From an uncultured Oscillospiraceae bacterium (lineage in GTDB: Bacteria; Bacillota; Clostridia; Oscillospirales; Oscillospiraceae), in assembly GCA_947625845.1 (NCBI GenBank), contig CANQQB010000009.1, positions 1 to 49,253 on the forward strand: a DNA stretch of 49,253 bases, in the 5' to 3' direction. Made by a program: the position numbers and the translations under genes. Of this stretch, positions 27,053 through 48,848 are shown piece after piece. Below the pieces are notes generated by a model. It was not told the DNA's origin. It searched no databases and saw only the letters and a list, made by a program, of their open reading frames with translations. Within the stretch, counting starts at the first letter, position 1. Each line of letters begins with the position of its first letter.

Positions 27053-28365
27053 CACGCGCCCTCCCGCAGCAGGAGTTTGACCACCGTGTCCGTCTTATCG
27101 GGCAGAGCCGGGTCGGGTCCCAGGTCCAAAAAGCACACGTCCGGGTAGTCGCTGTGGACCCAGCTGGAGGACAGGGGCACTTCGCTGCCGTCCGCCAGCA
27201 TGGAGGCCGACAGGATATCGCTCTTGCGTATTTGGGGCACGGGAAGAGGTCCCAGGGCGTTTTCATAGATGTGCAGGTACAGGGCATTGCCGTTGCGGGT
27301 GAAGCGGCCAAAATCGGGCTTGGGAAGGTCCGCGGGGCCGCAGGCGCGTATGCTCTCGGCGTTCTTGGCCATCCAGCGGCCTATCCGGTCCAGGATGGCC
27401 GTGGCTTCCGGGGGGAACTCCCCGGCGGCGGTGGGGCCCACGTTCAAAATCATGTTCCCGCCTTTGCTCACGCACTCCACCAGCTTCTTAATGAGCAGGT
27501 CCGCGCTCTTGTAGTGCCTGTCGGTGCGCACATAGCCCCAACTGTTGTTCATGGTGACGCAGCTCTCCCAGACCAGCGGGTCCCCGTGCACGTCCCGCAG
27601 GCCGGCGGGCGGGATCATCTGCTCCGGGGTGATAAAATCCCCGTGCCAGGGGGTGGGTTGGCACTGGTAGAGGGAGCCGAAGCCCTCGCCGCTGGCCTCC
27701 AAACGGTTGTTGAGCAGGATGTCCGGCTGGAGCGTGCGCACCATGTGGGCAAGATCGGCGGCCCGCCATTTCTCGCCAAGCATGTCATCGTAGCTGAAAT
27801 CGAACCACATCAGGTCCAGCCTGCCGTAATCCGTGCAGAGCTGGCGGACCTGCGCGTGCATATAGTCCACGTACCGCTCCCAGACGCGGCCGTCGTTGGT
27901 CCGGGCAGGGTCGTCCCGCAGGGGGTGATGGCGGTCGCCGTAGTGGGGGTAGTCCGGGTGATGCCAGTCCAGCAGGGAATAGTACAGCCCTACCTTTAAC
28001 CCCTCCGCGCGGAAGGCGTCCAGAAACTCCCGGACGATGTCCCGGCCAAAGGGGGTGCGGGTGGACTTGTAGTCCGTGTTGTCCGCGTCGAAAAGGCAGA
28101 AGCCGTCGTGGTGCTTGGCGGTGAGCACGGCGTACGCGGCGCCGGCGTCCTTGACCGCGCGTGCCCAGGCGCGGGCGTCGAAGCGGGTCGGGTCGAAGGC
28201 GTCGAAGAAGGGCTGGTAGGCTTCCTCCGGCATGCGCTCCGTGCTCCGGACCCACTCGCCGCGGGCGGGGATGGCATAGAGGCCGAAGTGGAAGAAAATA
28301 CCAAAACGGGCCTGGCGGAACCAGCGGACCCGCCGGTCGTACGCGCGCTTGTCGAACGTATACAT
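27052..28365 (-). CDS. GH29 alpha-L-fucosidase
   Basis: The 437-residue protein begins with the GH29 pattern WFRQARFGIFFHFGLYAIPARGEW and has YAVLTAKHHDGFCLFD and GRLDLMWFDFSYDD, where Asp189 is the expected nucleophile. LVECVSKGGNMILNVGP marks the end of the catalytic barrel. The acid/base varies in this family and is not assigned. There is no signal peptide, so it works on imported oligosaccharides, probably removing fucose from xyloglucan or host glycan side chains. FucO at 15135 could handle lactaldehyde from the fucose released. It is the first gene of the operon with the transglutaminase-like gene and cutC, and has an own promoter upstream (28396-28425). Confidence 0.9.
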   Translation of the reverse strand: MYTFDKRAYDRRVRWFRQARFGIFFHFGLYAIPARGEWVRSTERMPEEAYQPFFDAFDPTRFDARAWARAVKDAGAAYAVLTAKHHDGFCLFDADNTDYKSTRTPFGRDIVREFLDAFRAEGLKVGLYYSLLDWHHPDYPHYGDRHHPLRDDPARTNDGRVWERYVDYMHAQVRQLCTDYGRLDLMWFDFSYDDMLGEKWRAADLAHMVRTLQPDILLNNRLEASGEGFGSLYQCQPTPWHGDFITPEQMIPPAGLRDVHGDPLVWESCVTMNNSWGYVRTDRHYKSADLLIKKLVECVSKGGNMILNVGPTAAGEFPPEATAILDRIGRWMAKNAESIRACGPADLPKPDFGRFTRNGNALYLHIYENALGPLPVPQIRKSDILSASMLADGSEVPLSSSWVHSDYPDVCFLDLGPDPALPDKTDTVVKLLLREGA

Positions 28366-28395
28366 GACATCCTCCCGGTGTGTTTGTTATGACTT

Positions 28396-28425
28396 ATGAT
28401 AGCATGCCAAAGAGGCTCCGTGCAA
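28396..28425 (-). promoter_or_regulatory. Promoter of the fucosidase operon
   Basis: On the minus strand, TTGCAC (28420-28425), an 18-base spacer and TATCAT (28396-28401) form a plausible sigma-A promoter, followed by a GGGAGG-type site before the fucosidase ATG. Confidence 0.55.
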
Positions 28426-28463
28426 CACGGGAAAGGCCAAAAACATGCAATTCAGGTCGTGAT

Positions 28464-28517
28464 TTTGTCGATTCAGGACAAAGCTGTTGACAAATCAGGC
28501 AAAAAATCCGATATATA
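28464..28517 (+). promoter_or_regulatory. Promoter and candidate operator for the NlpC/P60 gene and peptide array
   Basis: TTGACA (28487-28492) is followed by an AT-rich TATATA (28512-28517; 19-base spacing, or a 17-base alternative GATATA). Directly upstream is a TTTGTC/GACAAA inverted repeat (28464-28482) that could bind a regulator. I see no other promoter before the small-peptide genes, so this one probably drives them too. Confidence 0.55.
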
Positions 28518-28561
28518 AACGCGTAACAGACTTTCATCACACCCATTAGGAGGAAAGGTAA

Positions 28562-30583
28562 ATGCGCGAGAAAGTGAGACGGGTACTGTGCGGGATGCTG
28601 GCGGCGGCGATGGCGTTCTGTCTGGCGCCAGGGGCGCTGGCGGACGGGGCCGTGACGCTCATGCCCGGCGTGACGCCGGCAATGTCCGACGCCGATTGGT
28701 GGGCGGACAGGCAGGCCGGCGCGGACCAGGTCATATTGACGCCGGAGGAAATAGAGGCGTTCAACCTGGACAGCGCCGAGCAGGAGGGCACCATGGTCAT
28801 GGACCTGCGCACCGGGTCGGATACATACGACGGCAAGGCGTACAACGAGAACCTGGAGAGGTCGGCCACGGCCGACGCGGAGCACTACTTCGGCTGGACC
28901 TACACCGGCGAGGGGGAAGAGGCCGACTGGGACTACTACCAGGCGATGATCGACAACTGCCTGGACCCGGACGAGAGCGAGGAGAAACCCGTGCGGTACG
29001 GCATCGCCGTCAGGCGTACGCTGCTGCGGGTGTTCCCCAGTCCGGACCCCATTCAGGACGATCCCAATGACCCGGACTTCGATTACCAGGCGCTCAGCTC
29101 CATACGGGTCAACGAACCCATGCTCATTTACAATACCTCCGCGGACGGGAAGTATTACCAGGCGCGGATATCCAGCTGCTCCGGCTGGGTGCCGGCGGAG
29201 GACGTGGCGCTGTGCGCGGACAAGGACGAGTGGCTGAGCGCGTGGGATCTGCCGGCGGAGAAGCTGCTGGTGGTGTACGGCAACAAGGAATATACAGACG
29301 CGTCCAACTCCAACCCGGACACGGCCGTGCGCATGCTGAGCCAGGGAACGGCGCTGGAGCTGGTGACGGATATAGAGCCGGACGAGCTCATCGGCAACCG
29401 GTCGCCGTATCACAACTACGTGGTCTACCTGCCTGTGCGGCGGGCCGACGGGGGCTATGAAAAGCAGATGGCGCTCGTTCCCGAGACGGCCAAGGTCAGC
29501 ATCGGGTACCTGCCCCTGACCATGCGGAACATCGCCATGGTGGCGCTGGAGAGCCTGGGGGACGCATACGGATGGGGCGGGATGCTGGACACGGAGGACT
29601 GCTCCGGCATGATACGCACCATCTATAAGTGCTTCGGGCTGGACATCGGGCGCAACGGCAACTGGCAATACAATATGAACATCGAGAAGATCGACATGAC
29701 CAACATGCCGCTGGAGGAAAAAAGGCTCATTCTGGACCAGATGCCCCTGGGGTCGGCGCTGTGCTTCGACGGGCATGAGATGATGTACCTGGGGAAGGTA
29801 GACGGGGAGTACTACGTGGTCAGTACCGTCAGCAGCATCGTGAGCCCCAATTCGGGGGAGATACTGCGGACACGGGACGTGATGATCAACGACATGCAGG
29901 TGAAGCGGGGCAGCGGCAAGACCTGGCTGGGAGCGCTGAATATGGCGTTCATGCCCTGCTACGCCACGGCTGCGGGGAAGACGTACGATTTCCCGGCGGT
30001 GGAGTGGTACCACGAGGGCGTGGCCTGGTGCCTGGGGGAGGGCGTGATGCGGTCCCTGGACATCGACGACACGTTCGGGATAGGGCAGACAGCAACCAGG
30101 GCCGATCTGGCCTACGGGCTGTGGGTGCTGTCCGGCGCGGCGGAAGAAGCGGCCGAGGCGGCGGCAGAGGCGGAGAGTGAAGAGGCCGAGGCAACGCCGG
30201 AGCCTGCGGAAGAGCCGGCGTATCCGTTCACGGACGTGGCCGAGGACGACGAGGCCAGAGACGCCATAGCGTGGGCAACGGAACAGGGACTCATGAGCGG
30301 CGTTTCGGATACGGCGTTCGCACCGGACGGGGCCGTGAGCCAGAACGACGTGCAGACGGCGCTGTGGGCACTGGCAAAGAGCGGGGAGCTGCTGGGGGCG
30401 GAGGACGGCCAGGTGCCATACTACTGGGCGCCGGAAGCGGGGGTCATAACCCAGGAGGACTGGGCAAATCCCATCGGAGAGCCTATGAGCCGGGAGGGGA
30501 TGGCCATGTGGCTGGCAAGGTACGGCCAGCTCTGCCAGGCCGAACAGGAGGCGGAGGAAGAGATCGACGCGGACGCCGCGTAA
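28562..30583 (+). CDS. Secreted NlpC/P60 peptidase with SH3-like and SLH-like domains
   Basis: The 673-residue protein has a signal peptide (about 1-28, ending APGALADG). A region of about 150-310 resembles bacterial SH3 domains. An NlpC/P60 cysteine-peptidase domain follows, with DCSGMIRTIYKCFG (Cys347) and the His in FDGHEMMYLG (His405). After an Ala/Glu-rich spacer, the C-terminus has at least two SLH-like blocks (AYPFTDVAEDDEARDAIAWA; ...ISQED-type ITQEDWANPIGEPMSREGMAMWLARYG). The likely role is cutting gamma-D-Glu-diamino-acid bonds in peptidoglycan while bound to the cell wall. Its stop codon is only 21 bases from the first GG-leader peptide gene, so it heads that array. The Cys-His pair is seen; the third polar residue is not assigned. 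Confidence 0.83.
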   Translation: MREKVRRVLCGMLAAAMAFCLAPGALADGAVTLMPGVTPAMSDADWWADRQAGADQVILTPEEIEAFNLDSAEQEGTMVMDLRTGSDTYDGKAYNENLERSATADAEHYFGWTYTGEGEEADWDYYQAMIDNCLDPDESEEKPVRYGIAVRRTLLRVFPSPDPIQDDPNDPDFDYQALSSIRVNEPMLIYNTSADGKYYQARISSCSGWVPAEDVALCADKDEWLSAWDLPAEKLLVVYGNKEYTDASNSNPDTAVRMLSQGTALELVTDIEPDELIGNRSPYHNYVVYLPVRRADGGYEKQMALVPETAKVSIGYLPLTMRNIAMVALESLGDAYGWGGMLDTEDCSGMIRTIYKCFGLDIGRNGNWQYNMNIEKIDMTNMPLEEKRLILDQMPLGSALCFDGHEMMYLGKVDGEYYVVSTVSSIVSPNSGEILRTRDVMINDMQVKRGSGKTWLGALNMAFMPCYATAAGKTYDFPAVEWYHEGVAWCLGEGVMRSLDIDDTFGIGQTATRADLAYGLWVLSGAAEEAAEAAAEAESEEAEATPEPAEEPAYPFTDVAEDDEARDAIAWATEQGLMSGVSDTAFAPDGAVSQNDVQTALWALAKSGELLGAEDGQVPYYWAPEAGVITQEDWANPIGEPMSREGMAMWLARYGQLCQAEQEAEEEIDADAA

Positions 30584-30604
30584 AAATCATAAGGAGGGAT
30601 CATC

Positions 30605-30811
30605 ATGGACGAGAAGAAATTGAACGAGAAGGAACTGGAAGGCGTCACCGGCGGAGGGAGCATACTGGGCATGGGACTCAATTCAGCGAATTTTTACGTC
30701 GATAACTGTTATAAATGCGGCAAGCACAGGACGACGGACTGCCCCTATTTTGGCAACCACACGCAGGCCGCCAAGGATCTAGGCAACGGGAAATGTCCCT
30801 ACAAAATTTGA
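30605..30811 (+). CDS. GG-leader Cys-rich small peptide 1
   Basis: The 68-residue peptide is preceded by AAGGAGG. Its leader MDEKKLNEKELEGVTGG ends in the double-glycine motif recognised by bacteriocin-type processing exporters. The core has four cysteines in the order C-x2-C-x7-C-P-Y and a last C-P-Y near the end. Peptides 2 and 3 share the C-x2-C-x7-CP spacing exactly. It probably is exported with leader removal; its activity is unknown. It could be a bacteriocin, a signalling peptide or a metal-binding peptide. It follows the NlpC/P60-SLH gene by 21 bases. Confidence 0.72.
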   Translation: MDEKKLNEKELEGVTGGGSILGMGLNSANFYVDNCYKCGKHRTTDCPYFGNHTQAAKDLGNGKCPYKI

Positions 30812-30834
30812 AAAATTTTAAGGAGGAATTTATC

Positions 30835-31014
30835 ATGTGCGAGAACAAGAATCTGGACGAGAAGAAGCTGGAACAGGTCACCGGCGGAGAGCTGATGGAC
30901 GCGGCGACGAAGGTCGGTCCGTCGAGAGTGAGAGGCGGCTGCTTTGACTGCGTGTACAGCGACAGGACGGAGTGTCCTTTTCCACCAACCCGACTATTCG
31001 GATCAAGAAAGTGA
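30835..31014 (+). CDS. GG-leader Cys-rich small peptide 2, apparently frameshifted
   Basis: The frame as read gives 59 residues with leader MCENKNLDEKKLEQVTGG and core cysteines CFDC-x7-CPF, then an unrelated tail. One extra T in the T4 run at 30978-30981 would instead continue to a TAA at 31053-31055, directly before the next ribosome-binding site. It would also add the expected fourth Cys (GAETCYSF). The intact form would be about 73 residues, like its neighbours. This is either a real frameshift, phase variation or a sequence error. Confidence 0.65.
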   Translation: MCENKNLDEKKLEQVTGGELMDAATKVGPSRVRGGCFDCVYSDRTECPFPPTRLFGSRK

Positions 31015-31067
31015 CGGGCGCAGAGACCTGTTACAGTTTCATAGCCAAAGGGTAAGGAGGCGGCGGT

Positions 31068-31307
31068 ATGGACGAGAAAAACGTGGACGAGAAGAAGCTG
31101 GAGGGGGTCACCGGCGGGCGCGACAGTGTCGTGGAGTTTCACGAAAAATTCAAAACGAAAAACTGTATCCTGTGCGCCAAGTGGGGCAACGGCACGTGTC
31201 CCTATGAGGGGAACGCCTGGAAGAAGTTCTACGCGTTCAGCGGGGAATCGAACGCGGTGTGCCCGGATAGAGAAAGCAAGGGTTCGGCAAGAGAACTCAA
31301 GTGTTAA
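31068..31307 (+). CDS. GG-leader Cys-rich small peptide 3
   Basis: The 79-residue peptide has leader MDEKNVDEKKLEGVTGG. The core shows CILC, then seven residues, then CPY, a fourth Cys in NAVCPD and a final Cys as the last residue. It has the same C-x2-C-x7-CP spacing as peptides 1 and 2. An AAGGAGG site lies 8 bases before the ATG. The five cysteines and many Lys/Glu residues suggest a metal-binding or disulfide-rich exported peptide, but no known family is recognised. Confidence 0.7.
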   Translation: MDEKNVDEKKLEGVTGGRDSVVEFHEKFKTKNCILCAKWGNGTCPYEGNAWKKFYAFSGESNAVCPDRESKGSARELKC

Positions 31308-31319
31308 GGAGGCGGCAAC

Positions 31320-31472
31320 ATGGAGGAAAAGAAAGTGGACGAGAAAAAACTGGAGGACGTGACGGGCGGCTTCAGCAATGAGCCGGACGACGGGAAGTAC
31401 GCGGGCATCCTTCACCAAGGCCGGCAAAGGTACGAGTTGGAGAAGAAAAAACAGGAGATGGAGAAGAAATGA
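31320..31472 (+). CDS. GG-leader small peptide 4 (no cysteine)
   Basis: The 50-residue peptide follows an AAGGAGG site. It keeps the leader MEEKKVDEKKLEDVTGG but its short core has no cysteine; it is polar and ends in a Lys/Glu-rich helix-like tail. It overlaps peptide 5 by four bases (ATGA), so the two are translated together. Given the shared leader, it may be a partner peptide or a helper instead of an active core. Confidence 0.62.
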   Translation: MEEKKVDEKKLEDVTGGFSNEPDDGKYAGILHQGRQRYELEKKKQEMEKK

Positions 31473-31672
31473 AGGAGGAAAAGAAAATCAACGAGCAGGA
31501 ATTGGAAAAGGTCAGCGGGGGCGGGGACATGGGGTCGGTGGAGGTCCTGTTTCGCTGTCCCCAGTGCGGGGAAGAGCTGCAAGGCAAGTTGATAGGACCC
31601 TTTCCGAAATGCCCTGCATGCTGGACGGCGATGAACGTCGTGTCCGGCAGCCAAAAGCTGGTCCAGGACTGA
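31469..31672 (+). CDS. GG-leader zinc-ribbon-like small peptide 5
   Basis: The 67-residue peptide has leader MKEEKKINEQELEKVSGG. Its core has CPQCG, 14 residues, then CPAC, the two-knuckle pattern of zinc ribbons. It starts inside the peptide 4 stop. Zinc ribbons are normally cytoplasmic nucleic-acid or protein-binding units, so joining one to an export leader is unusual. Zinc binding is inferred from spacing only. Confidence 0.68.
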   Translation: MKEEKKINEQELEKVSGGGDMGSVEVLFRCPQCGEELQGKLIGPFPKCPACWTAMNVVSGSQKLVQD

Positions 31673-31688
31673 AAGGAGAGGATAAAAC

Positions 31689-31889
31689 ATGGACGAAAAG
31701 AAGATCAACGAGCAGGAATTGGAGAGCGTGAGGGGGGTAGAGTTCGCAACGGTGCTGTATCGCTGCCCCAACTGCGGAAGAGAGGGGCGTATGAGCGCGA
31801 GCGCGAGCGCGATTCCGCGGAAGTGCATTGTATGCAATGTGAACATGGTCAAGGTGGATGACTCGGATAAGTACCGGGAATTTGGATAA
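31689..31889 (+). CDS. Zinc-ribbon-like small peptide 6 with degenerate GG site
   Basis: The 66-residue peptide has leader MDEKKINEQELESVRGV, nearly identical to that of peptide 5, but the terminal GG is replaced by RGV. The core has CPNCG, 16 residues and CIVC. Either the leader is cleaved differently, or this copy is no longer exported. An AAAGGAGAG site precedes the ATG. Confidence 0.65.
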   Translation: MDEKKINEQELESVRGVEFATVLYRCPNCGREGRMSASASAIPRKCIVCNVNMVKVDDSDKYREFG

Positions 31890-31904
31890 AAAAGGAGAAA
31901 GGAC

Positions 31905-32117
31905 ATGGCTTTTTTTGAAATGAACGAGGATATTTTGGACGATGTGATCGGCGGAGCGGCTAACCCCGCCGCGCCGGTGGCGACCGATACGCTCACCGAT
32001 CGGTGCCCCAAGTGCGGCAAGAGCATCACGTTCAATAAGCGGGACTTTATGCTCACGTGCCCCTATACCAATTGCAGGGCCAAGCTCACCATCAAAAAGG
32101 GCAAGCTCACCCTTTGA
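31905..32117 (+). CDS. GG-leader zinc-ribbon-like small peptide 7
   Basis: The 70-residue peptide has a more divergent leader, MAFFEMNEDILDDVIGG, still ending in GG. Its core has CPKCG, 14 residues and CPYTNC, another zinc-ribbon-like pattern, and a basic C-terminus. It is the last gene of the tandem array; 75 bases later starts the large anchored surface protein. Confidence 0.67.
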   Translation: MAFFEMNEDILDDVIGGAANPAAPVATDTLTDRCPKCGKSITFNKRDFMLTCPYTNCRAKLTIKKGKLTL

Positions 32118-32192
32118 AACAGAACGCGGGCGCGTAAAGCGCTGAACGAAACACACCTGAACGGTGCCGCCGGCAGAAAAGGAGCTTATAAT

Positions 32193-35100
32193 ATGAAAAA
32201 CAGTATGTTCAAACGAGTGAGCGCGCTGCTGCTGGCGGCGCTGGTTCTGGCGGCCGCGTGCCCCGCGGCGATGGCCGCGGAGGAACCCGTGGCCGCAGAG
32301 CTGCCTATCGGCGGGGAAATGCCCGCGGATATGGAAGAAACCGTCGACGGGGAAGAACCGGTCGACGTAGAGGAACCGGTCGACGGGGAAGAGCCGGAGA
32401 CGGTACCGGAGACGGTGAGCGAGCCGGCGGCGCGGGTGACAGCGGGCGGCGCGACGACGGAGTACGCCAGCTTCGACGAGGCGTTCGAGGCCGCGCTGGA
32501 CGCGGGTACGGCGAAGGTGGAGGTGCTGCGGGACGTGACGGCGGGCGACGAGCTGGCCGTCACCGGCGGTAAGGAACTGACGCTGGATACGGCGGGGGCG
32601 ACGCTGACGCTGCCGGACGGCGCGTACGTGTTCGGGAAGATGACCGTTGCCGGCGGGAGCCGGATCAACGGGCCGCTGCTCGTATCCGTGGGCGGACAGT
32701 TGACGCTGGAGGATAACGCGGCCGTGGCGAGCCAGAGCCAGGCGTACAGCGCCGCGGTGGTCCTCACCGGCGGCAGCGTGACCGTGGGCAGCGGCGCGCA
32801 TATCGCCGGCACCTACGGCGGCGGGCTGCTGGCCGCGTCCAGCTTTGGGGCGTGCAAGGTGACCGTGGAGTCCGGTGCGCAGATCGAGGGCGGGACCTTC
32901 GGCGTGGGCGCGTACACGGACGGCTATGACGCCGAGGTGGCGCTGGACGGCTGCACCGTCACGGGCGGCGAGGAGGCGGTCTACGCGGCGGGCAAGACAA
33001 AGATGACCATCACGGGCGGGACGTTCAACGGCGGGGAGTACGGCCTGAGAGCCGCCTGTCAGGCGAGCGTCAGCGGCGGCACGTTCAGCGGCGGCGAGTA
33101 CGCCATATACTGCCCCGAGACGGACGAGGACGGCACGCCTGTCCAGCGGCCGTGCGCCGTGCGGGACCTGCCGGGTGAGGGGTGCGGCTACATAGGCGAG
33201 GACGGACAGAGCGTGACGGTGCAGAACGAGCAGAGGACCCTGACCGGGCCGGTCGTCGTGGGGCCTGTGGCGGCATGCGTCCTGCTGCCCGGCGAGAGCG
33301 CGACCACCGGGTATTATACCGATCTGGACGAGGCGTGGACCGCGGCTAACGCGGCCGGCGAAGCCACCGTGGATGTCATGCAGGAAGTGACGGCCATGGG
33401 TTCGCTCCGGGTGGCCGACGGGGCGAAGATCCGGCTGTGGGTCGACAAAACGCTCACGGCCAACATCGACGTGGGAAGTCCGGAGGCCGGCGGTAGCGGG
33501 GAGCTGACGGTGATGATGGGCGTCATCAGCGGCCAGGTGTGCGTGTACGGCGGGACGGCGACCGTGGACGGGGCGGAGATAGACGGACTGACGCCTGTCC
33601 TCGTCCGGGGCGGCAGCGTGACGCTGCGGAATGGGGCGCTCGTCCAGGGCGACGCGTGCGGCGTGGCGGTGGAGGGCGGCAGGCTGACGCTGGATACGGC
33701 CGGGGTCGCCGGCGCGGGCACCTATGGCATCTTCGTCGGGAGCGGCGAGGCGGTCTTGAACGAGGGCCTCGTCACCGGTCCCGAGGCGGGCGTGTACGTG
33801 CAGGGCGGCACGTTCACCGGCACCGGCGGCAGCGCCACCGGTAAGGCGGCGGTGCTGGTGCGGGAAACGGTCGAGACAGTCCCCGCGTCGGTCAGTATCT
33901 CCGACGGCGCTTTTATCGGCGTCACCGGTCCCGCTCTGGCGCTGGAGAAGACGTCGGCGGGGACGAAGGTGAGCCTGTCCGGCGGACAGTACACGGGCAT
34001 GCCGTATGCCATCGACGGCGGGTCCGTGAAGCTGGCGGAGCTGCTGGCGGCGGATATGGGGTACTTTGACGAGTACGACGAGCGTATCGTGCCCACGGCG
34101 GACCAGACGACGCTGGCCGGGGACGTGACCGTGCACGGGACAATACCTGTGGCGGAGGTCACCGTGAACGGGACCAGCACCCGGTACACCACCTTTGACC
34201 GGGCATGGGACGCCGCCGCAGAGGCGGACGAGGCCACGCTGACGCTGCTGGGAGACGTGACCGCGAAGGAAATGCTGACGCTGACCGGCGGCGGACACGT
34301 GACGGTCCGGGGCGGACAGTACACGCTGACGGCGGCGGGTGATATCCGGCTGGGCGATGTGCCCGACGCCAGCGGGTGGGACCGGTCCATGACCGGTAAC
34401 GCGCTGACATTGGAAAGCGGTACCATCCGGGGGGCCGTCGAGCTCTGGGGCGGCAACCTGACCGTCAGCGGCGGGACCATCGTGTGCGCTGAAAACTATG
34501 GCTGCACGGTCACGAACCTGTCCGGCACCGTGACCATCAGCGGCGGCACGGTCATCTCCGGCGAGTCCACGGCGGTGTATCTCTATGGGACGGACGCCGA
34601 TAATCTGCTGACCGTCAGCGGCGGCCAGGTGCATGGCGCGTTCTGCGGCGTCTCCGCCGACGCAGGACAGGTGAACGTCACCGGCGGCGAGATCGTCGGC
34701 GGGCAGAACGGCATATACGTGAGAGGTCATGAGGCGACGCCTGTTGCCGTCGCCGTCTCCGGCGGACAGATCACCGGTACGGAGGGCAGCGGCCTGAGCC
34801 TGGCGGAATACTGCTCCGTCACTGTCTCCGGCGGTACGTTCCAGGGCGGCGTCAACGCCGTGGAGTGCATGACGGAGGACGGTTTGGGCGAAGCCATCGA
34901 CCAGAAGCTGACCGTGAGCGATCTGCTGGCGGCGGGGTACGGCTGGTTCGACGGCACCGGGGCGGCCGTCACGCCGACGGCCGGTCAACTGGTCCTGCCG
35001 GGGACCGTGACGGTCCGGACGCTGACAGCGCCGTCTACGGCGGCGCCTACGGCAACGCCGGGTGCGACGGCTACGGCCGCGCCTGTCACGGGCGACGAGA

Positions 35101-35209: not shown

Positions 35210-35470
35210 ATGAATGAACTGCGAGCGCGGACCAATCCCTCGTTCAACGCGGCCAGGTCTACCCTGGTGTATCTCATGCAGGCCGGGGACCAGAACGCGG
35301 CCAGGATGGCCAAGGCGCTGCGTATTGACCCGGATAAGGTGTTCCGGGGCGAACAGCAGGGCGCTTTGAGCCTGGGCATGGTGGCGTGCGTGGACGCTTA
35401 CCACGAGATCATGGACCAGCTCCTGGCCGCCGGACCGGAGAAGACCCAGGCCGTCAAAAAAGGTTTTTGA
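35210..35470 (+). CDS. Small helical protein of unknown function
   Basis: The 86-residue protein starts at ATG 35210, 14 bases after the beta-helix stop and behind AAAGGAGA. The longer upstream frame is a shadow. It is predicted mainly helical (NAARSTLVYLMQAGDQNAARMAKALRI) with no signal peptide, cysteine motif or known domain; a helix-turn-helix role is possible but not shown. The last codons and stop form the left half of a terminator palindrome. Confidence 0.5.
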   Translation: MNELRARTNPSFNAARSTLVYLMQAGDQNAARMAKALRIDPDKVFRGEQQGALSLGMVACVDAYHEIMDQLLAAGPEKTQAVKKGF

Positions 35471-35553: not shown

Positions 35554-36399
35554 ATGGCGGCTATTTATCCCATTCGAGGCGGGACTGGCGTCCCCCTCGA
35601 GCTCCCCCTTGCCTTACGTACATTTTCTAATTCTTTGACAGTCTGGGTGGCCTATCTGACCCAGTCGGAGGTGCGACAGTTCTGCGCCAACGTGCGGCGG
35701 GTGCTGCGGGAGTTCGGCGGGCGACTTCTCACCCCGGACCCGGAGGCGAGCAGACGTACCATCGGCACGCTGCGGGCGGTGATGGGCGAGGAGGCGTTCC
35801 AGAACGTGATGAGCGCCTACAATACCCTGTCCGCGCAGTCGGACGTGACGGTGGGGGGAAACGATCTGGTGGTCCCATTCCATGAGAACAGCGCCGAGAA
35901 GGCCACGGTGCTGCTGGCGGAAAACGGGCTGCGGGCGAAGATGCTTCCCATGGGCGAATATATGCCAGAGCTGAGGGTGTTCGCCAGGCTGGACGAGCGG
36001 CAGCGGGAGGATATGCAAAAGCTGTACGCGGACCTGCACGTGTGGGAGATCAGGCTGGACCCGGACTGGACCGAGCCGGCGGCGGTGCTCGGCGGCGCTT
36101 TCGCCATACGCGCCGACGTGGACGGCACGGAGCTGACCGTCACCCTGCGGGGGCGGGTGGACTCGCTCAGCGCGCCGGACTTCCTGGCGGCCTTTGAAAA
36201 GGCGGCCGGGAGCCATGCGCTGACCGACGCGCGTGTGGAGATGTCCAGGCTGGAGTACATATCCTCCGCAGGACTGCGGGTGCTGCTCATCATGACCAAA
36301 CGCCTGGGCGTGGGGCACGTGACCGCCGCCGGGGCCAACGGGGTCGTCCGCGATATATTGGAGCAGACCGGGTATGACGCCATCATAACGCTTGTATAG
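35554..36399 (+). CDS. STAS-domain protein with a truncated methyltransferase-like N-terminus
   Basis: The open frame of 281 residues ends in a STAS domain (about 190-281; RVEMSRLEYISSAGLRVLLIMTKR, with Ser in the SSAG position phosphorylated in anti-anti-sigma factors). Residues about 25-150 resemble the C-terminal half of TcmP/PPM1-type methyltransferases (VAYLTQSEVRQFCANVRRVLREFGGRLLTPDPE), but the SAM-binding N-terminal half is missing. The first 25 residues appear random, the ATG sits inside a palindrome, and no ribosome-binding site is seen. I infer a 5'-deleted, perhaps dead gene. If expressed, the STAS part could be a substrate of the SpoIIE-type phosphatase at 41045. Confidence 0.6.
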   Translation: MAAIYPIRGGTGVPLELPLALRTFSNSLTVWVAYLTQSEVRQFCANVRRVLREFGGRLLTPDPEASRRTIGTLRAVMGEEAFQNVMSAYNTLSAQSDVTVGGNDLVVPFHENSAEKATVLLAENGLRAKMLPMGEYMPELRVFARLDERQREDMQKLYADLHVWEIRLDPDWTEPAAVLGGAFAIRADVDGTELTVTLRGRVDSLSAPDFLAAFEKAAGSHALTDARVEMSRLEYISSAGLRVLLIMTKRLGVGHVTAAGANGVVRDILEQTGYDAIITLV

Positions 36400-37235: not shown

Positions 37236-37475
37236 ATGGACGAACGGACATTGCGGGACGAGGCCCTGGAGGGCGTGAGCGGCGGCGTGGGCGGCATGGG
37301 CCGCGCCAGCTTCCCCGCCGTGGCGGAGGATTTCGCCAGGGCCAGCCGCTGCCGCGACTGTCCCAACAGGGACCTGAAGCTCCACCATGGGATATGCATG
37401 GAGGAGTATTTGGTGCTGCTGAATGAGTTTACGATAGGCGGCCCGATACAAATGCGCTGCCGCCGCCGGCCGTAA
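37236..37475 (+). CDS. GG-leader small peptide 8, beside the dipeptidase
   Basis: The 79-residue peptide has leader MDERTLRDEALEGVSGG, clearly of the same family as the array at 30605-32117. The core has a Gly-rich start, CRDCPN, a Cys 11 residues later (HHGIC) and one more Cys in the basic tail MRCRRRP. It starts 17 bases after the dipeptidase stop behind AGGGGGAG, so the two are co-transcribed. It lies 5 kb from the array, suggesting that the leader family has spread within the region. Confidence 0.65.
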   Translation: MDERTLRDEALEGVSGGVGGMGRASFPAVAEDFARASRCRDCPNRDLKLHHGICMEEYLVLLNEFTIGGPIQMRCRRRP

Positions 37476-37536: not shown

Positions 37537-39447
37537 ATGAAAAAAGCTGCCGGACGGCGGGTCATCGTCGGCGCGGCCGCGATGGTCGTCGCGGCGGCGC
37601 TGATCCTGGCTGTGTTCTCCATGCTCAGCGTGACGGATAAGGCGGACCAGTCCCTGGGGGATACGGAGGACATACGCTTCGGCTGGCGCTATGAGGTGCT
37701 GACCGACGACGGCGCGCGGGCCTATGAGCCGGCGTATGTGGACAGGTTCGATCTTCGGCTGCCGGAGGATACCCGGGCCGTGCGCGTTACCCGTACCATG
37801 ACGGAGGATGTCCCCCAGGCGGAGTTGGAGTGGGTGAGCTATCAGAACGGCGTGGAGGTGGCGCTGGACGGGGTGCCGCTCTACACGGATTTTCCCGGCC
37901 TGGAACGGGACGGGGACGGATTCGTCCATCCCGACGACGGTCAGTGGGAGCGTATCTGGCAGCAGCAGGGCGAGACGGTGCGCACCACGCGCATGACCCT
38001 GCCGGGGGACTACCTGGGACGGGAGCTGTCCGTCACCACCTATTTCCGGGAGGGGTACGGCCAGAGGCCGGAGTATCCCTTCCTGGGGAGCGAGGACTCG
38101 GAGGCGGCGCTGTATGTGGTCACCTCGGTGCGAAATGACGCCATCATGACCGTTTACGCGCTGTTGGCGCTCATAATGGCGGCGGTGTTTTTGGTGGACC
38201 TGTACAACAACCGCAACGGGGACGGCCGGACGCTGCTGCTGTGCCTTTACTTCCTGCTGCTGTTTTTGCGGGAGGCATACGGCTCCACCGCCGGGTATTA
38301 CAGTATCCTGACATCCAGGCTGGATCTGCGGTTTTTGGAATGGGTGTATATGGCGCCGCTGTATCTGTATCTGGTCCTGCGGCTGAAAAGCCGGTGGAAG
38401 TGGGCTCTGTGCGCACTGGTGGCGGTATGGACGGTCTATGAGACTGTGTGGGAGCTGATATGGAAGCACATCTATCCCGATGGGACGGCGACGCTGGTAG
38501 GGCCGGTGACACTGGGGGTGCTGCTGGCGGTGACTGCGGCGCTGGCCGTCGACACGCTGCGCCGGAAAAATCGCACGAAGCGGGAAAAAAGGCGCATGCT
38601 GTTCTATGGGCTCATCGCCGTGGGGACCGCGGTGTTTTACATGCTGAACCGGGTCCGGGCCTGGGGAGGCGACTTCATCGGCTTTTTCCGGGACGAGCTG
38701 TGGCTGAGCCTGCGGGATGGCAACTGCTGGTCCTGGGTGAGCATGCTCACAGCCGTCATATCCTGGATGACCGTGCTCATGGTGATATCGGAGGCCATCC
38801 GCAGGACGCTGGCGACCCACCGGACCATGGACGTGCTGCGGGAGCGGGAGCGGCAGACCATGGCCGGATACCAGAGGCTTCTGGCCTCGGAGGAGGAGAC
38901 AAGGGCGCTGCACCATGAGATGCGCCACCATATGCTGGCCCTGTCCGCCATACTGGCCGACGGGGACGCGGAGCGGGCTCACCGGTACGTGGACGCCGTG
39001 GCAGACGATCTGGCACAGGTGCCGGCGGGCCGGTATTGCCAGAATATCCTGGTGGACAGCATCGCCGGGAGCTTCCTGGATCAGGCGGCCGGCGAGGGGA
39101 TACGGGTGGAGCACCACCTGAACTTGCCACAGACAATGAATATCGCCGACGAGGACCTGAGCGTGTTTTTGAGCAATATGCTGCAAAACGCGCTGGAGGC
39201 CTGTCGGCGGATGGACCAAAAGCGGGAGCGGTATATCTGGGTGGATATGCATCTGCGGGGGAATTTCCTGTGCGTACAGTGCGTCAACAGCGCGCCGGAC
39301 GAGCCGGACACGCGGGAACGTCAGGGGCACGGATACGGCCTGGCGGCCATGCGGGCCGTGGCCGAGAAATACAACAGCGTCCTGCTCCCGGAGCGGACGC
39401 CGCGCGGCTATTCCGTGACAAGCGATTTTTGCCTGGAAAAGATTTGA
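37537..39447 (+). CDS. Membrane sensor histidine kinase (GHKL type)
   Basis: The 636-residue protein has an N-terminal membrane segment (about 10-32), an extracytoplasmic beta-rich domain (about 45-205) and six or seven membrane segments (about 208-425). A short coiled helix precedes the kinase core. The phosphoacceptor region is ALHHEMRHHML (His459/460), the N box is LSNMLQNALEACRR and the G box GHGYGLAAMRAVAEKYN, as in AgrC/NatK-type GHKL kinases. The layout resembles 7TM-DISM sensors. It is convergent with the LytTR regulator gene four bases away, its probable partner. GHKL-LytTR pairs often sense peptides in Firmicutes, so sensing one of the nearby GG-leader peptides is possible but unproven. 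Confidence 0.85.
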   Translation: MKKAAGRRVIVGAAAMVVAAALILAVFSMLSVTDKADQSLGDTEDIRFGWRYEVLTDDGARAYEPAYVDRFDLRLPEDTRAVRVTRTMTEDVPQAELEWVSYQNGVEVALDGVPLYTDFPGLERDGDGFVHPDDGQWERIWQQQGETVRTTRMTLPGDYLGRELSVTTYFREGYGQRPEYPFLGSEDSEAALYVVTSVRNDAIMTVYALLALIMAAVFLVDLYNNRNGDGRTLLLCLYFLLLFLREAYGSTAGYYSILTSRLDLRFLEWVYMAPLYLYLVLRLKSRWKWALCALVAVWTVYETVWELIWKHIYPDGTATLVGPVTLGVLLAVTAALAVDTLRRKNRTKREKRRMLFYGLIAVGTAVFYMLNRVRAWGGDFIGFFRDELWLSLRDGNCWSWVSMLTAVISWMTVLMVISEAIRRTLATHRTMDVLRERERQTMAGYQRLLASEEETRALHHEMRHHMLALSAILADGDAERAHRYVDAVADDLAQVPAGRYCQNILVDSIAGSFLDQAAGEGIRVEHHLNLPQTMNIADEDLSVFLSNMLQNALEACRRMDQKRERYIWVDMHLRGNFLCVQCVNSAPDEPDTRERQGHGYGLAAMRAVAEKYNSVLLPERTPRGYSVTSDFCLEKI

Positions 39448-39451
39448 TATG

Positions 39452-40171
39452 TTAGCCGAAGGGGTGGCGCTGGCGGTCATAGGCGGCCAGGGCGAACTGG
39501 ACGGTGGCGTAGTCGGCCCGGCTCATGGGCACCATGTCCCCGGTGGACAGACGGAGCCTGTCCCGGCCAAGCACGGCGATGTGCTCCAGGTTGACAAGAT
39601 AGCTGCGGTGGACACGGGCGAACCGTCCCACGGGCAGCTCCCGTTCCAGGTCCTGGAGCGTGGCACGCCAGGCGCTCTCGCTCCCGTCCCGCAGGCGGAG
39701 CCTGACCACATGGTTGTATACCTCAAAAAACATCGCGTCCGTCACCGGCAGACGCACCGTCCCCTGGGGGGTGGTGAGGGACAGCATCTGGGGCGCGCGC
39801 CGCTCCAGAAACCGGTCCAGGACTTCTTCCAACTGCTCGGGGCGCAGAGGCTTGAGCAGATAGTGCAGGGGATGGGCGTCATAGCCCGCCACGGCGTACT
39901 GGGCGCTGCTGGTCACGAACACCAGATCCAGGTCCCAGTTCCGCTCCCGCAGGAGCCGGCCAAAGCGGATGCCCTTTTCCTCGCCGAATAAGATGTCCTG
40001 AAATATGAGCTCGCACCGCTCGCCTCGCTCCAGGGCTGACAGCGTCTGGGCAGGGTCGGGGTAATAGGTGACGTGACATTCCGCGCCCCGCTCCGCGAAG
40101 GAACGGGACAGCAGGGACGAAAGAGACGCGGCGAAAGCGCTGTCGTCGTCGCATATGATGATCTCGTACAT
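39452..40171 (-). CDS. LytTR-family response regulator
   Basis: The 239-residue protein starts at ATG 40171 behind AAGGGGG; a longer frame to 40210 lacks a site. The receiver domain (about 1-120) has the acidic cluster CDDD and the phosphoacceptor Asp59 in FQDIL, with Lys in YLLKPL. The C-terminal LytTR DNA-binding domain (about 135-239) has FARVHRSYLVNLEHIAVL and VPMSRADYATV. It is the cognate partner candidate of the GHKL kinase, unusually encoded convergently. Likely targets are nearby surface or peptide genes; no LytTR site was identified. Confidence 0.88.
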   Translation of the reverse strand: MYEIIICDDDSAFAASLSSLLSRSFAERGAECHVTYYPDPAQTLSALERGERCELIFQDILFGEEKGIRFGRLLRERNWDLDLVFVTSSAQYAVAGYDAHPLHYLLKPLRPEQLEEVLDRFLERRAPQMLSLTTPQGTVRLPVTDAMFFEVYNHVVRLRLRDGSESAWRATLQDLERELPVGRFARVHRSYLVNLEHIAVLGRDRLRLSTGDMVPMSRADYATVQFALAAYDRQRHPFG

Positions 40172-40268: not shown

Positions 40269-41045
40269 ATGGGAAGCACAAAACTCTCACCGGTGAGCCT
40301 GGCAATGTTCTACGGGGCGAACCGGGACTTCGCAAACGCCTTCAGCGTCCGGGTGACGCTGAAAAACCCCATCGAGCCGGAACCGCTGCGGCGGGCGGTA
40401 GACAAGGCCATGGAGCGGTATCCCTACTTTGCCGTGCGCCTGACCGTACAGGGCGAGGACCTGGTGTTGGAGGATAACCCCCTGCCGGTGACCATCGTGG
40501 CGCACCAGAGCATGGTCAAGCTCATCGAGCTTGCCTACCCTCCCAGGCTGAAGGGGTCGGACATCGAGCGGCTGGCCATATGCAGCCGGGGCATGGTGAT
40601 GCTCCAGAGCCAGCCGGAGACGGTGTGGGACACGGTGAGAAAGCAGCTTGCCCTGGAAAAGGAGCTGGAGGGGCTGACGCTTCAGGAGAAGTTCGACCGG
40701 CTGCGGCCCATCGTCACCGGCGCAAGGACGGGCATCGGCAATCTGCCCGCGTCCGCGCCTGTGAGCTTCAAGGTCAGCTACGTGGGCCGGACGGATTGGG
40801 GCAGCATGGCCAATATGATAGAATCCGTGCACTGTTCCGTGACCACCGACGGAAGCGGCATCTGCATCGAGATCAACACCGACAACGGGTATTTCGACTA
40901 CTGCTTCATGCAGGAGTTCGAGGACGACAAGTACGCGAACACCTTCGTGGACCTGTTGGAGCAGGAGGGCATCTACTGCACGGTCAGCGGGCCGTACGAC
41001 GTACACGTACCCAAAATGCGCCTGCCGGACGAACCGGAGGCATAA
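40269..41045 (+). CDS. Condensation/acyltransferase-like protein with internal deletion
   Basis: The 258-residue protein begins like condensation-superfamily proteins (alcohol acetyltransferase or NRPS C-domain type): FANAFSVRVTLKNPIEPEPLRRAVDKAMERYPYFAVRL. It ends like them (VSFKVSYVGRTDWGSMANMIESVHCSV... YFDYCFMQEFEDDKYANTFVDLLEQEGI). The central part with the HHxxxDG active site is absent; family members are usually about 430 residues. It is therefore probably inactive as an acyltransferase, or a binding remnant. The gene has an AGAAGGAG site and shares one base (TAATG) with the phosphatase gene, so the two are translationally coupled. Confidence 0.6.
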   Translation: MGSTKLSPVSLAMFYGANRDFANAFSVRVTLKNPIEPEPLRRAVDKAMERYPYFAVRLTVQGEDLVLEDNPLPVTIVAHQSMVKLIELAYPPRLKGSDIERLAICSRGMVMLQSQPETVWDTVRKQLALEKELEGLTLQEKFDRLRPIVTGARTGIGNLPASAPVSFKVSYVGRTDWGSMANMIESVHCSVTTDGSGICIEINTDNGYFDYCFMQEFEDDKYANTFVDLLEQEGIYCTVSGPYDVHVPKMRLPDEPEA

Positions 41046-47164: not shown

Positions 47165-48796
47165 TTAACTTTTTTCCAGGACCTGGCCGTCTTTTACGAG
47201 GAACACCCGGTCAAAGGTCTCCAAAAACGCCGGGGAGTACTCATGGATGGCCGCGATCAAAATGCCGCATTGCATATCCGTGATCTTTTTCTCCACAAAG
47301 CGTCTTGTTTCCGCGTCCAAACCCGTGGTAGGCTCGTCCAAAATCAAAACACCGGCATTTCGCACCAGTGCGCGGCCAAGATTCAGGCGCCGCTCTTCAC
47401 CGCCGGACATGCCCGTTTCCTCTGTGCCGATGCGCGTATCCAGCTTGTCCTTTTGCCCGCTGTACCATGGACCAAGCCCCACGTCCGATAAAACCTTTGT
47501 GAGCTTTTCCGGATCCGCGTATTCGTTGTCAAACATCGTCAGGTTGTCCCGGATCGTCGCGTCAAAAATAAAGGACCGCTGCTCCAATAACGAGATGTTC
47601 TTCCTAAAATCCCGGTAAGTATACGACCGAATTGGCAGCCCGTTTATCAGGTACGTGCCGCTGCCGCCTGTCAAGGCGGCGAGATAACGTATCAAGGTGG
47701 ATTTTCCCGAACCGCTTTCCCCAAGGACCGCGATCCGCTCGCCTTTCCGGAGCGTCAGGTCTACGCCGCGCAATACCGGCTTATCGTTGTTTCGGACGGT
47801 AACGTCCCGCAGCGCGATCTCACGCACGTCAGCCAGCGTGTTTTTGCCCCAGCCGCTCTCTTCCTCCGCGGTATTATCCAAAAACGCCGTGAGCTTATGG
47901 CACACGGCAGACGCCGCGACGACGGAGGTATACCGCTCGCTGATGATCTGTATCGGGCCGGCCACAAATGTCATGAGCTGTGAAAATATCACCAGCTCCG
48001 GCAAGGTTATATATTGTTTTTTGACAAAGAAAATGCCGAAGACCCATGTGCATAAAAATACCAGATTCCCCGCGCCGAACGCTCCCGCGTAAAGGATGGC
48101 GTTCATCTTGCTGAACTGTTTTTTCTTCTGGAAAAGCCGGTCGTTCTCCCGGTCGTATTTTTGGTTGATACCGGCAAAACTGTTAAATACCCGCAAAAAA
48201 GAATACCCGTTCAGGATTTGCGTAACGATGTGCAGATGGGTCTTTTTGGCCTCCTGCTCTTCCGTTTTCGCTTTTTGCAGCGGTCTTTCCGATAGCTTTG
48301 GAAATATAACGGGAATGACGCTGATGACAAGCATAATGGCCGTCATGATCGGCTGGATCCTTACGGCGGAAAATATCGCAAGACCAAAGCAGCAGATCTG
48401 AAAATAGACAGCGCCAAGCGAGCCGAAATAATCCTGCTCTACGGTGGGAATATCATTATTGATCAGCGACAAATAGTAGCTGTCCTCATTTTGCCGTTTT
48501 TCCTCGTTGGAGAGGCTTTCCATTCGCCGGATCACGTCCGCGCGCAGCGACTTGCCGATTTGATGGATGGCCCGGTCCCTTGTATAATCCATCAGGAAAT
48601 TCAAAAATGTATCCAGGAGGATATACAACAGGGTGACGATCGCCAATGTCAGAAAACCTGTCTGTAAACCACCTATGGCGGCGTCCGTAAACGCTCCCAG
48701 TAAGTAGGCCAAAAGAACGGACGAAATCGCGGCAAGTAAATTGGACAGTCCGAAGCAAAATACGGACCTTCCATTTCTCTTTGCATATCGCCACAT
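47165..48796 (-). CDS. ABC exporter (fused membrane and ATPase domains)
   Basis: The 543-residue protein starts at ATG 48796 behind AAGGAAGGAGGG; the longer frame to 48841 would translate through that site. A six-helix type IV exporter domain (about 1-310) is followed by an ATPase domain with GESGSGKSTLI (about 355-365), MSGGEERRLNLGRAL (about 461) and VLILDEPTTGLDAETR (about 482). There is no C39 peptidase domain, so it cannot itself cleave GG leaders. The cargo could be a lipid, a peptide or a drug; some relatives are CydCD-like or bacteriocin immunity exporters. The DNA is visibly less GC-rich than most of the window, suggesting acquisition by transfer. No partner gene is adjacent. Confidence 0.85.
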   Translation of the reverse strand: MWRYAKRNGRSVFCFGLSNLLAAISSVLLAYLLGAFTDAAIGGLQTGFLTLAIVTLLYILLDTFLNFLMDYTRDRAIHQIGKSLRADVIRRMESLSNEEKRQNEDSYYLSLINNDIPTVEQDYFGSLGAVYFQICCFGLAIFSAVRIQPIMTAIMLVISVIPVIFPKLSERPLQKAKTEEQEAKKTHLHIVTQILNGYSFLRVFNSFAGINQKYDRENDRLFQKKKQFSKMNAILYAGAFGAGNLVFLCTWVFGIFFVKKQYITLPELVIFSQLMTFVAGPIQIISERYTSVVAASAVCHKLTAFLDNTAEEESGWGKNTLADVREIALRDVTVRNNDKPVLRGVDLTLRKGERIAVLGESGSGKSTLIRYLAALTGGSGTYLINGLPIRSYTYRDFRKNISLLEQRSFIFDATIRDNLTMFDNEYADPEKLTKVLSDVGLGPWYSGQKDKLDTRIGTEETGMSGGEERRLNLGRALVRNAGVLILDEPTTGLDAETRRFVEKKITDMQCGILIAAIHEYSPAFLETFDRVFLVKDGQVLEKS

Positions 48797-48848
48797 AAGC
48801 TTTCCCTCCTTCCTTTGCAAATACCATCGGGCCGAAGCCAAAATGAAA

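Follow-up and report, generated by a model that had tools for sequence, protein, structure and literature searches.

A window of 49,253 nucleotides, the whole stretch of DNA analyzed here, from an uncultured Oscillospiraceae bacterium (assembly GCA_947625845.1, contig CANQQB010000009.1) carries an array of seven small genes at positions 30605 to 32117, whose products share a double-glycine (GG) leader in front of differing cores. Taken jointly, the evidence makes it probable that these peptides belong to a family that is controlled by a LytTR-type regulator, exported by an NHLM-type transporter, and composed mostly of peptides with a metal site. The wiring, with a LytTR operator, a GG leader, and C39 export, can be read as bacteriocin-like, of the blp/sil type; the cargo of predicted metal-site cores is unusual. 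A genome-wide set of peptides with one DNA control site suggests a little-described arsenal of small secreted peptides.

The first-pass annotation of this DNA had proposed seven consecutive small open reading frames (ORFs) in this region, and all seven were recovered. They lie in tandem on the forward strand at the predicted positions, encode 50 to 79 residues, are each preceded by an AGGAG- or GGAG-like ribosome site, and were predicted as genes by a codon-usage gene caller trained on 25 larger genes of the window. That annotation missed an eighth leader peptide (37236-37475), a LytTR-type operator, and a two-component system (Table 1). The operator precedes an operon in which the seven peptide genes begin 21 bp after the first gene, with no forward-strand terminator-like site between; a scan of that strand from 28360 to 32300 found no such site. 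In a relative (G011), peptides 4, 7, and 8 have orthologues in the syntenic neighborhood and peptides 1, 2, 3, 5, and 6 do not; the neighborhood also encodes one distinct zinc-ribbon-like peptide. The array thus turns over. The ratios of nonsynonymous to synonymous substitution rates (dN/dS) against the G011 orthologues were 0.48, 0.18, and 0.49 for peptides 4, 7, and 8, respectively, as expected for genes under constraint. The 140 bp around the window operator and promoter were 97% identical to G011, compared with a dS of 0.28 to 0.52 for the same three peptides. Chance ORFs were ruled out by these syntenic orthologues and their dN/dS, together with leader-profile matches in relatives. A phage origin was likewise rejected, with no PHROGs match at E ≤ 0.01 for the four of the eight peptides tested.

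The leader proposed earlier as common to the array holds for most of it: the exact motif [DN]E-x2-LE-x-V[TS]GG occurs in five of the seven peptides, while peptide 6 reads VRGV and peptide 7 reads LDDVIGG. Hydrophobic residues at -12, -7, and -4 and GG (or GA/GS) at -2/-1, the hallmarks of a double-glycine leader, were found in most of the leader peptides collected from the genus (counts below). In the window, peptide 6 departs at -1; cleavage of its leader, which ends in GV, is doubtful. The C39 peptidase groove seats leader residues V-4, L-7, and L-12 (PMC6363468), and the leaders carry these residues, in agreement with the earlier assignment to the type read by C39 exporters. Against TIGR01847 (cut-off, 15.7 bits), peptide 2 scored 15.9, peptide 5 scored 14.7, and peptide 1 scored 14.2 bits; peptides 3, 4, 6, and 7 were not among the matches listed. 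The Nif11 and nitrile-hydratase leader models TIGR03798 and TIGR03793 gave no match at E ≤ 10 for the seven peptides among the matches listed, and one array peptide of another genome (G020) came near the Nif11 cut-off (30.3 versus 32.3 bits). Judged by its leader sequence, the window family is thus distinct from the Nif11/NHLP precursors.

The leader family is far larger than seven genes, which bears out and extends the earlier proposal, drawn from core diversity behind one leader, of a multipeptide system. A profile of the seven leaders (A2) found those seven in the host at E-values of 1.3e-8 to 4.2e-7, which is circular, and matched 13 of 59 relatives at E ≤ 0.05, down to 9.5e-7, all within the same genus. 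With a profile built from 41 host leaders (A3) at E ≤ 0.1, 60 matches were obtained in the host, and 16 of the 35 genus genomes were matched, with 1 to 60 matches each. The search in relatives suggested by the first-pass annotation thus returned both orthologous ORFs and a conserved leader. From 46 stretches of the genus, 176 distinct leader peptides were gathered by a regular expression on called genes, a few of them doubtful (one hydrophobic protein, L078_4159, and three Nif11-type leaders split too early). Among the 176, V-4 was present in 170, L-7 in 165, L-12 in 151, and G-1 in 173. These figures are partly built in: the expression accepts only G at -2, only G or V at -1, and set residue classes at -4, -6, and -7. 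It does not dictate the single residue at -7 and -4, and it leaves position -12 free.

In 14 of 35 close peptide pairs, divergence was clearly greater in the leader than in the core. Near-identical cores with clearly different leaders were seen between L181 (G013) and L179 (G033) and in other pairs (for example, 97% identity in the core and 62% in the leader), and judging from these alignments leader and core look as if recombined. For close pairs of array peptides, dN/dS was unclear (pooled dS, 0.080; dN, 0.052; 11 pairs), and given the divergence between leader and core, leader exchange rather than selection may explain this.

The core patterns described for the array were present as claimed. 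Peptides 1 to 3 share C-x2-C-x7-C-P-[YF], peptides 5 to 7 carry CPxCG...C-x2/4-C, and peptide 4 is Cys-free; core lengths in the window range from 33 to 62 residues. Across the 176 peptides, the number of Cys residues per core was zero in 35, one to three in 14, four in 75, five in 41, and six to eight in 11. Spaced Cys motifs were strongly enriched over shuffled cores among the 170 cores of at least 20 residues: C..C occurred in 132 (36.1 when shuffled), CPxCG in 25 (0.2), a two-knuckle pattern in 65 (2.1), and C..C-x4-10-C-x15-32-C in 46 (2.8). Two-knuckle-like cores were also more frequent among leader peptides (32/101) than among other short ORFs (17/711) in 36 genus stretches, with shuffled cores at 8.75%.

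Substitutions and profile comparisons pointed in the same direction. In one family (cluster 4), the fourth ligand position is C in seven of eight members and H in the remaining one. Another (cluster 3) has CxxH in all eight members, and peptides outside the cluster in L177 and L178, similar by eye, have CxxC. The profile of the peptide 5/6 family matched Rpo12/RNA polymerase subunit P at 2.6e-5, across the core. The two highest-ranked matches of the peptide-7 profile were chains of repeated zinc fingers, which reach E-values of 0.48 or weaker over a single stretch; the profile also matched a LysW-type protein (0.003) and RNA polymerase subunit P (0.009). The two families were alike as profiles (probability, 98%), partly via the leader. 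For the four-Cys family of peptides 1 to 3 (A6), no PDB profile match was better than 0.3. In alignment A5, the L073 row is a translation that lacks a start codon. At the sequence level, then, the earlier proposal of zinc-ribbon-like cores is supported, notably by the Rpo12 match and the Cys/His exchange inside one family.

To locate the linked C39 exporter that had been anticipated, 60 genomes were searched. A C39 peptidase was present in 17 of them, including 14 of the 35 within the genus, and the NHLM ABC2 cut-off was exceeded in 12 of the 60. The anticipated link is thus borne out in relatives, with the differences that the exporter is of the NHLM type and does not adjoin the window array. 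In G001, the genes run in the order leader peptide, peptide-7-type zinc-ribbon peptide, short HlyD, C39-ABC1, and ABC2, and the exporter proteins scored 937 (ABC1, TIGR03796; cut-off, 853) and 732 bits (ABC2, TIGR03797; cut-off, 709). Similar exporter blocks with leader peptides were found in G012, G013, G020, G021, G026, G030, G033, and G034, and G014 has leader peptides beside a partial, split ABC1. Relatives of peptide 7 adjoin HlyD-like/ABC1 exporter genes in L059, L064, and L068. Exporter blocks without a tandem leader array were seen in the stretches examined of G003, G016, G018, and G023, two of which are short contigs; G003 has a leader peptide about 7 kb from the exporter, and G016 has one peptide with another leader.

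Within the host assembly, the starts of two contigs (C37:1-255 and C106:1-255) encode the last ~85 residues of an ABC2 protein (88% identical, residues 641 to 725 of 728), and arrays of leader peptides directly follow both fragments. No other host ABC2 match exceeded 41% identity among the matches listed. The two contig ends are 96.5% identical in DNA across 257 bases, the kind of repeat that breaks assemblies, so that the host exporter was probably lost at contig breaks. The argument that the host has no exporter, and hence no export, was dropped in view of these ABC2 ends. The ABC transporter encoded in the window at 47165-48841 was rejected as the exporter, having no C39 match and 24% identity to the NHLM ABC2. 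Leader matches and C39 peptidases also co-occurred in the genus: 12 of 14 C39-positive but 4 of 21 C39-negative genomes had leader matches (Fisher P value, 1.4e-4, which ignores relatedness), with G000 (the host), G006, G011, and G017 having leaders only, G016 and G023 an exporter only, and 17 genomes neither.

The window operator has the geometry bound by LytTR regulators, 9-bp repeats spaced 12 bp apart (PMC2766830). A degenerate pattern, allowing up to three mismatches, was searched in the 35 genus genomes; having been built from host sites, it misses more divergent ones. It returned 73 sites in nine genomes (G013, 21; G033, 17; G000, 14; G034, 8; G011, 4; G026, 4; G030, 3; G007, 1; G032, 1), and a reversed-pattern control returned none in any genome. 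Exactly 37 bases from the site start lies a -35-like box, TTGAC at 71 of the 73 sites, TCGAC at one, and neither at one (L221). The window promoter is missing from the output of a general consensus promoter scan, which requires T at position 6 of the -10 element. By a strict frame-by-frame count, a leader motif lies within 960 bases of 37 operators, compared with 5 for the reversed motif. A looser rule, applied to called genes, asks for a leader peptide as the first or second gene no more than 900 bases away, and 38 operators satisfy it; of the remainder, 19 have a first gene whose start resembles a signal peptide (by a crude pattern), 13 have some other first gene, and 3 have no called gene. 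One of these 38 sites (L073, on host contig C88) was counted through a match inside the core; the leader peptide there (~966-1190) has a likely ATG out of frame with VTGG and the core, which points to a degraded gene copy or a fault in the assembly. Of the 14 host sites, 8 are directly followed by leader peptides, the C88 site by the out-of-frame one, and the window site by the operon described above; the remaining four stand before secreted repeat proteins or have no called gene after them.

Candidate regulatory genes accompany the operator. Orthologues of the window regulator occur in G011, G030, and G007 (75 to 86% identity) and those of the kinase in G011, G026, and G030, so that regulator or kinase genes are present in the five operator genomes covered by the search (the host, G007, G011, G026, and G030), of nine in all. 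A pair in G003 is more distant (40% identity for the regulator), and this genome has no operator match. Downstream of the operator in G026 and G030 lies a gene for a small protein, followed by the kinase gene. This small protein (L237:213-398 in G026; L183:1090-1275 in G030) is a leaderless product of 61 residues with two CxxC motifs. Collectively, 9-12-9 repeats before apparently co-regulated promoters and a LytTR regulator, the marks of a LytTR regulon, were both found at the level of sequence. Operators were also observed before large secreted proteins with near-identical signal peptides (L206, L208, and L229 to L234), so that coordinated induction of the peptides and of surface proteins is possible.

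The combination of leader, core, and exporter was also sought outside the genus. Named genomes, most of the hits being metagenome-assembled genomes (MAGs), were scanned with the G001 ABC1, and the best 80 of at least 595 loci were analyzed. Leader peptides were found by pattern in 47 of the 80 (144 peptides; reversed-pattern control, 12). Two-knuckle-like cores, a loose zinc-ribbon-like pattern, were present in 25 of the 80 (41 peptides, mostly in Clostridia MAGs), so that such cores behind GG leaders are not unique to the window locus; they accounted for 41 of 143 cores versus 34 of 1634 other short ORFs, with shuffled cores at 16%. The zinc-ribbon-like-core pattern may therefore reach beyond the genus. 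When ten array and outside peptides were scanned, four outside ones matched the Nif11 leader model at 30.2 to 31.4 bits, under the 32.3 cut-off. Loci from other Clostridia (L105, L109, L111, L113, and similar) repeatedly have Nif11-like leader peptides beside NHLM exporters, with Cys-rich cores that end in a common YEKGLWLCNN-like motif.

Based on these findings, we propose that the GHKL kinase/LytTR pair (37537-40171) would sense a signal and that the regulator would bind the 9-12-9 repeat and turn on the promoter at its fixed spacing; the operator and the gene pair were observed, and from them we infer regulator binding and the pairing of the two. The peptides would be made with a leader bearing L or another hydrophobic residue at -12, L-7, V-4, and GG, determinants of C39 peptidases that are present in the leader sequences. 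The C39 domain of an NHLM ABC1/ABC2 exporter would then cut after GG and the core would be exported, as suggested by the exporter in relatives and the ABC2 fragments at host contig ends. In most cores, a single metal ion would organize the fold, with four Cys/His residues (zinc-ribbon-like) or a C-x2-C/C/C site as its ligands; some of them may be treble clefs. Outside the cell, the peptides would act between bacteria, likeliest as bacteriocin-like competition factors. This last role, suggested by wiring, diversity, and turnover, is put forward tentatively, as a plausible rather than a probable one, and membership in the class II bacteriocins is not established. On a bolder version, gut Clostridia would secrete unmodified zinc-finger mini-proteins as an undescribed class. 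Each genome would encode dozens of metal-folded cores of zinc-ribbon, treble-clef-like, and C-x2-C/C/C types, exchanged behind a common leader and exported through NHLM transporters, and some members of one genus would induce them jointly, via a LytTR operator of the quorum-sensing type, as an arsenal against neighbors; we hold this to be conceivable and rather doubtful.

A number of observations weigh against the proposal of a LytTR-controlled, NHLM-exported, mostly metal-site family. On the side of the cores, 35 of the 176 lack Cys, and none of the tested peptides passed a Pfam zinc-finger cut-off among the matches listed; the zinc-ribbon scores below the cut-offs were many and weak (Zn_ribbon_3, 21.8 versus 27 bits for an array peptide; DUF7130, 24.6 versus 35 bits for peptide 5). 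On the side of export, no C39 peptidase was found in the host assembly (78.5% complete), and the G001 HlyD is far below the TIGR03794 cut-off (38.7 versus 156.2 bits, covering the first 58 of 421 positions in a protein of 158 residues). G006, G011 (93% complete), and G017 have leader matches with no C39 peptidase and no close ABC2 match, and the window-type leader is unmatched in G016 and G023, which have an exporter. The co-occurrence rests partly on single weak leader matches (one each in G006, G014, and G017 and one at E 0.093 in G018). As for regulation, 36 of the 73 operators have no leader motif nearby. The host arrays on C37 and C106, which are exporter-linked, and on C59 have no operator, the best candidates showing 7 to 10 mismatches, and are presumably under another control. 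Seven genomes (G001, G003, G012, G014, G018, G020, and G021) have an exporter and leader matches with no operator found. No immunity genes were recognized, in an analysis that included no systematic search for them. Finally, a gene for a SPASM radical SAM protein of 463 residues lies behind the operator in G033 (L215:413-1804) and G013 (L252:850-2241), so some members may be modified; a maturation cluster inside the regulon is possible there.

These radical SAM genes would also fit a different account, in which the peptides are precursors of ribosomally synthesized and post-translationally modified peptides (RiPPs) and a trans-acting maturase (a radical SAM enzyme, a methyltransferase, or another) modifies or cross-links the cores before NHLM export. 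The prochlorosins, in which one LanM serves many precursors, provide a model for this. Besides its position behind the operator in G013 and G033, a radical SAM gene adjoins leader peptides in G012, and homologues occur in 21 of the 80 exporter loci from named genomes. Of the 25 loci with zinc-like cores, 11 contain such a homologue, and some cores there may therefore be modified. Furthermore, the peptides on which NHLM exporters and GG leaders were defined are presumed to be modified (PMC2887384), and the precursors of type II pamtides have a conserved zinc-ribbon core (PMC10787088). However, none of the 35 genus genomes, 13 of which are 90% complete or better, yielded a LanC-like cyclase (PF05147), compared with a match in 1 of 14 control genomes, and lanthionine cross-linking was rejected for the genus on this basis. 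SPASM radical SAM genes occur in 32 of the 35 genomes irrespective of leader matches, neither of the two in the host (on contigs C39 and C40) shares its contig with a leader match, and Cys/His exchange is not expected for a thioether cross-link. From the maturases covered, LanC-like cyclases and SPASM radical SAM enzymes, we regard the RiPP account as unlikely overall. It is less likely still, and indeed improbable, that the peptides are cytoplasmic small zinc ribbons that are not exported and have a GG-leader-like N terminus by chance or for another purpose. The resemblance of the cores to cytoplasmic ribbons such as Rpo12, the GV of peptide 6, and a host assembly without a C39 gene would fit, but C39-groove residues are common to unrelated cores, leader peptides adjoin NHLM exporter genes, and leader and exporter co-occur.

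Two of the alternatives bear only on what the peptides do outside the cell, and the likelihoods given here are not shares of a single total. That the peptides serve mainly as signals (pheromones) read by the neighboring kinase, rather than as weapons, is suggested by peptide 8, directly upstream of the GHKL kinase in both the window and G011, and by the operator before the kinase gene in G026 and G030, which resembles autoregulation. Classical pheromones are shorter and fewer than cores of this size and up to 60 leader matches per genome, and a single window peptide adjoins the kinase, leaving a mainly signaling role quite unlikely. A role in metal scavenging after secretion, in the manner of zincophores, or in metal buffering at the cell surface is in our judgment similarly unlikely. 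The many copies of four-ligand Cys/His cores would suit such a function, as would the co-regulated secreted proteins suggested by signal-peptide-like first genes; yet folded zinc ribbons normally use zinc structurally, and the Cys-free members have the same leader and operator.

If the proposal of an exported, mostly metal-site family is correct, GG leaders and NHLM exporters carry folded metal-binding mini-proteins besides modified natural products, and RiPP mining keyed to maturases would overlook them. The genus provides a ready test set of 73 operator sites and 176 candidate precursors, and the LytTR pair offers a handle on when the peptide set is made.

Table 1. Regulatory sites, peptide genes, and regulator genes of the leader-peptide system in the window
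Feature	Position	Strand	Description
LytTR-type operator	28450..28479	+	9-bp direct repeats ATTCAGGTC / ATTCAGGAC, 12-bp spacer, 21-bp period
Putative promoter	28487..28515	+	-35 TTGACA, -10 GATATA, 17-nt spacing; offset common to 72/73 operator sites
First gene of presumed operon	28562..30583	+	Signal-peptide-like start, SH3, NlpC/P60 and SLH domains; ends 21 bp before peptide 1
Leader peptide 1	30605..30811	+	68 residues; GG leader and C-x2-C-x7-CPY...CP core, four Cys
Leader peptide 2	30835..31014	+	59 residues; GG leader and C-x2-C-x7-CPF core, three Cys
Leader peptide 3	31068..31307	+	79 residues; GG leader and C-x2-C-x7-CPY core, five Cys
Leader peptide 4	31320..31472	+	50 residues; GG leader and charged Cys-free core; G011 orthologue
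Leader peptide 5	31469..31672	+	67 residues; GG leader and zinc-ribbon-like core CPQCG ... CPAC
Leader peptide 6	31689..31889	+	66 residues; zinc-ribbon-like core; leader end GV, not GG
Leader peptide 7	31905..32117	+	70 residues; GG leader and zinc-ribbon-like core
Leader peptide 8	37236..37475	+	Directly upstream of kinase gene; orthologue at same place in G011
Histidine kinase	37537..39447	+	GHKL ATPase domain, HATPase_c_5 38.1 vs 22 bits
LytTR response regulator	39452..40171	-	LytTR 53.7 vs 22.6 bits, receiver 42.3 vs 30.2 bits

A protein starting MGSTKLSPVSLAMFYGANRDF is encoded in the window at 40269-41045; it has 258 residues. Other copies, among them a second one in the host (L072:999-2297), have 432, and by this comparison the window copy has apparently lost an internal part. 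Members of the family are found repeatedly next to leader arrays; the copies tested had no Pfam, NCBIfam, or PDB match. A condensation-like label for it was abandoned, with no PDB match for the long host copy and no NCBIfam or Pfam match for the G012 and window copies, and the protein was left unnamed. Two ORFs at 35210-35470 and 35647-36399 resemble the start and the STAS end of one protein of 402 to 437 residues in relatives (L175:9387-10595 and L180:10332-11585), and the window gene therefore appears split. At 41045-43183, the window encodes a dCache-HAMP-SpoIIE phosphatase of 712 residues without the C-terminal HATPase match of its G012 counterpart (L058, 852 residues). Such phosphatase and STAS genes adjoin the NHLM exporter in relatives. 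Leader arrays are interleaved with Sel1-repeat-type proteins in L071, L175, L181, and L182, and some of these loci have AIM24 and NUDIX proteins.

With respect to known systems, the first-pass annotation had regarded zinc-ribbon cores behind such leaders as an undescribed class. No description of them behind GG leaders was found among the listings and abstract openings searched in an open-access collection, which lacks most subscription papers, nor did that collection return a paper joining Nif11 with a zinc finger; in the part of PMC9200625 consulted, a zinc ribbon is mentioned only in passing. Zinc-ribbon RiPP precursors of another class, however, are known. These are the type II pamtides, whose conserved zinc-ribbon core is predicted to bind zinc (PMC10787088). 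The likeness to the window set lies in the zinc-ribbon core within a precursor; unlike the window set, they have a DnaJ-type CxxCxGxG repeat, a central Asp, and an adjacent O-methyltransferase gene, and the words double-glycine and Nif11 are absent from the main text of that paper.

The NHLP/Nif11-derived peptides with NHLM export (TIGR03793 and TIGR03794/03796/03797) number 1 to 12 NHLPs per genome (Haft et al. 2010, PMC2887384) and share with the window set the exporter families, GG leaders, hypervariable cores, and several precursors per genome. They differ in that the window leaders are short and have no Nif11/nitrile-hydratase match, the cores are metal-site-like, and no lanthionine enzyme was found in the genus; a LytTR-type operator, as in the window set, is not mentioned in the portion of PMC2887384 considered. 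The lah cluster of Lachnospiraceae C6A11 comprises the LahT C39 protease, whose C39 domain cleaved seven of seven LahA substrates tested, and nine LahA precursors (PMC6363468). Diverse cores behind a conserved leader are common to both systems, as are V-4, L-7, and L-12, which are read by the lah protease; lah, however, is a lanthipeptide cluster with Nif11 leaders, in contrast to a genus in which LanC was found in none of the 35 genomes.

The core spacing CPxCG...C-x2-C is shared with Rpo12/subunit P and with small HVO_2753-type zinc ribbons, in line with the Rpo12 profile match. Archaeal Rpo12 and HVO_2753-type zinc ribbons differ from the window peptides in being cytoplasmic and having no GG leader. 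Among bacteriocin regulons, pln is a further one under a kinase/LytTR regulator. Unlike sil, blp, and pln, the window set, known here from its genes, has zinc-ribbon-like or four-Cys cores, a probable NHLM two-ABC exporter, and dozens of members. It resembles the kinase/LytTR bacteriocin-competence regulons sil and blp (PMC2766830) in its GG-leader peptides scattered over operons behind LytTR direct repeats, its probable C39-type exporter, and its 9-12-9 operator geometry.

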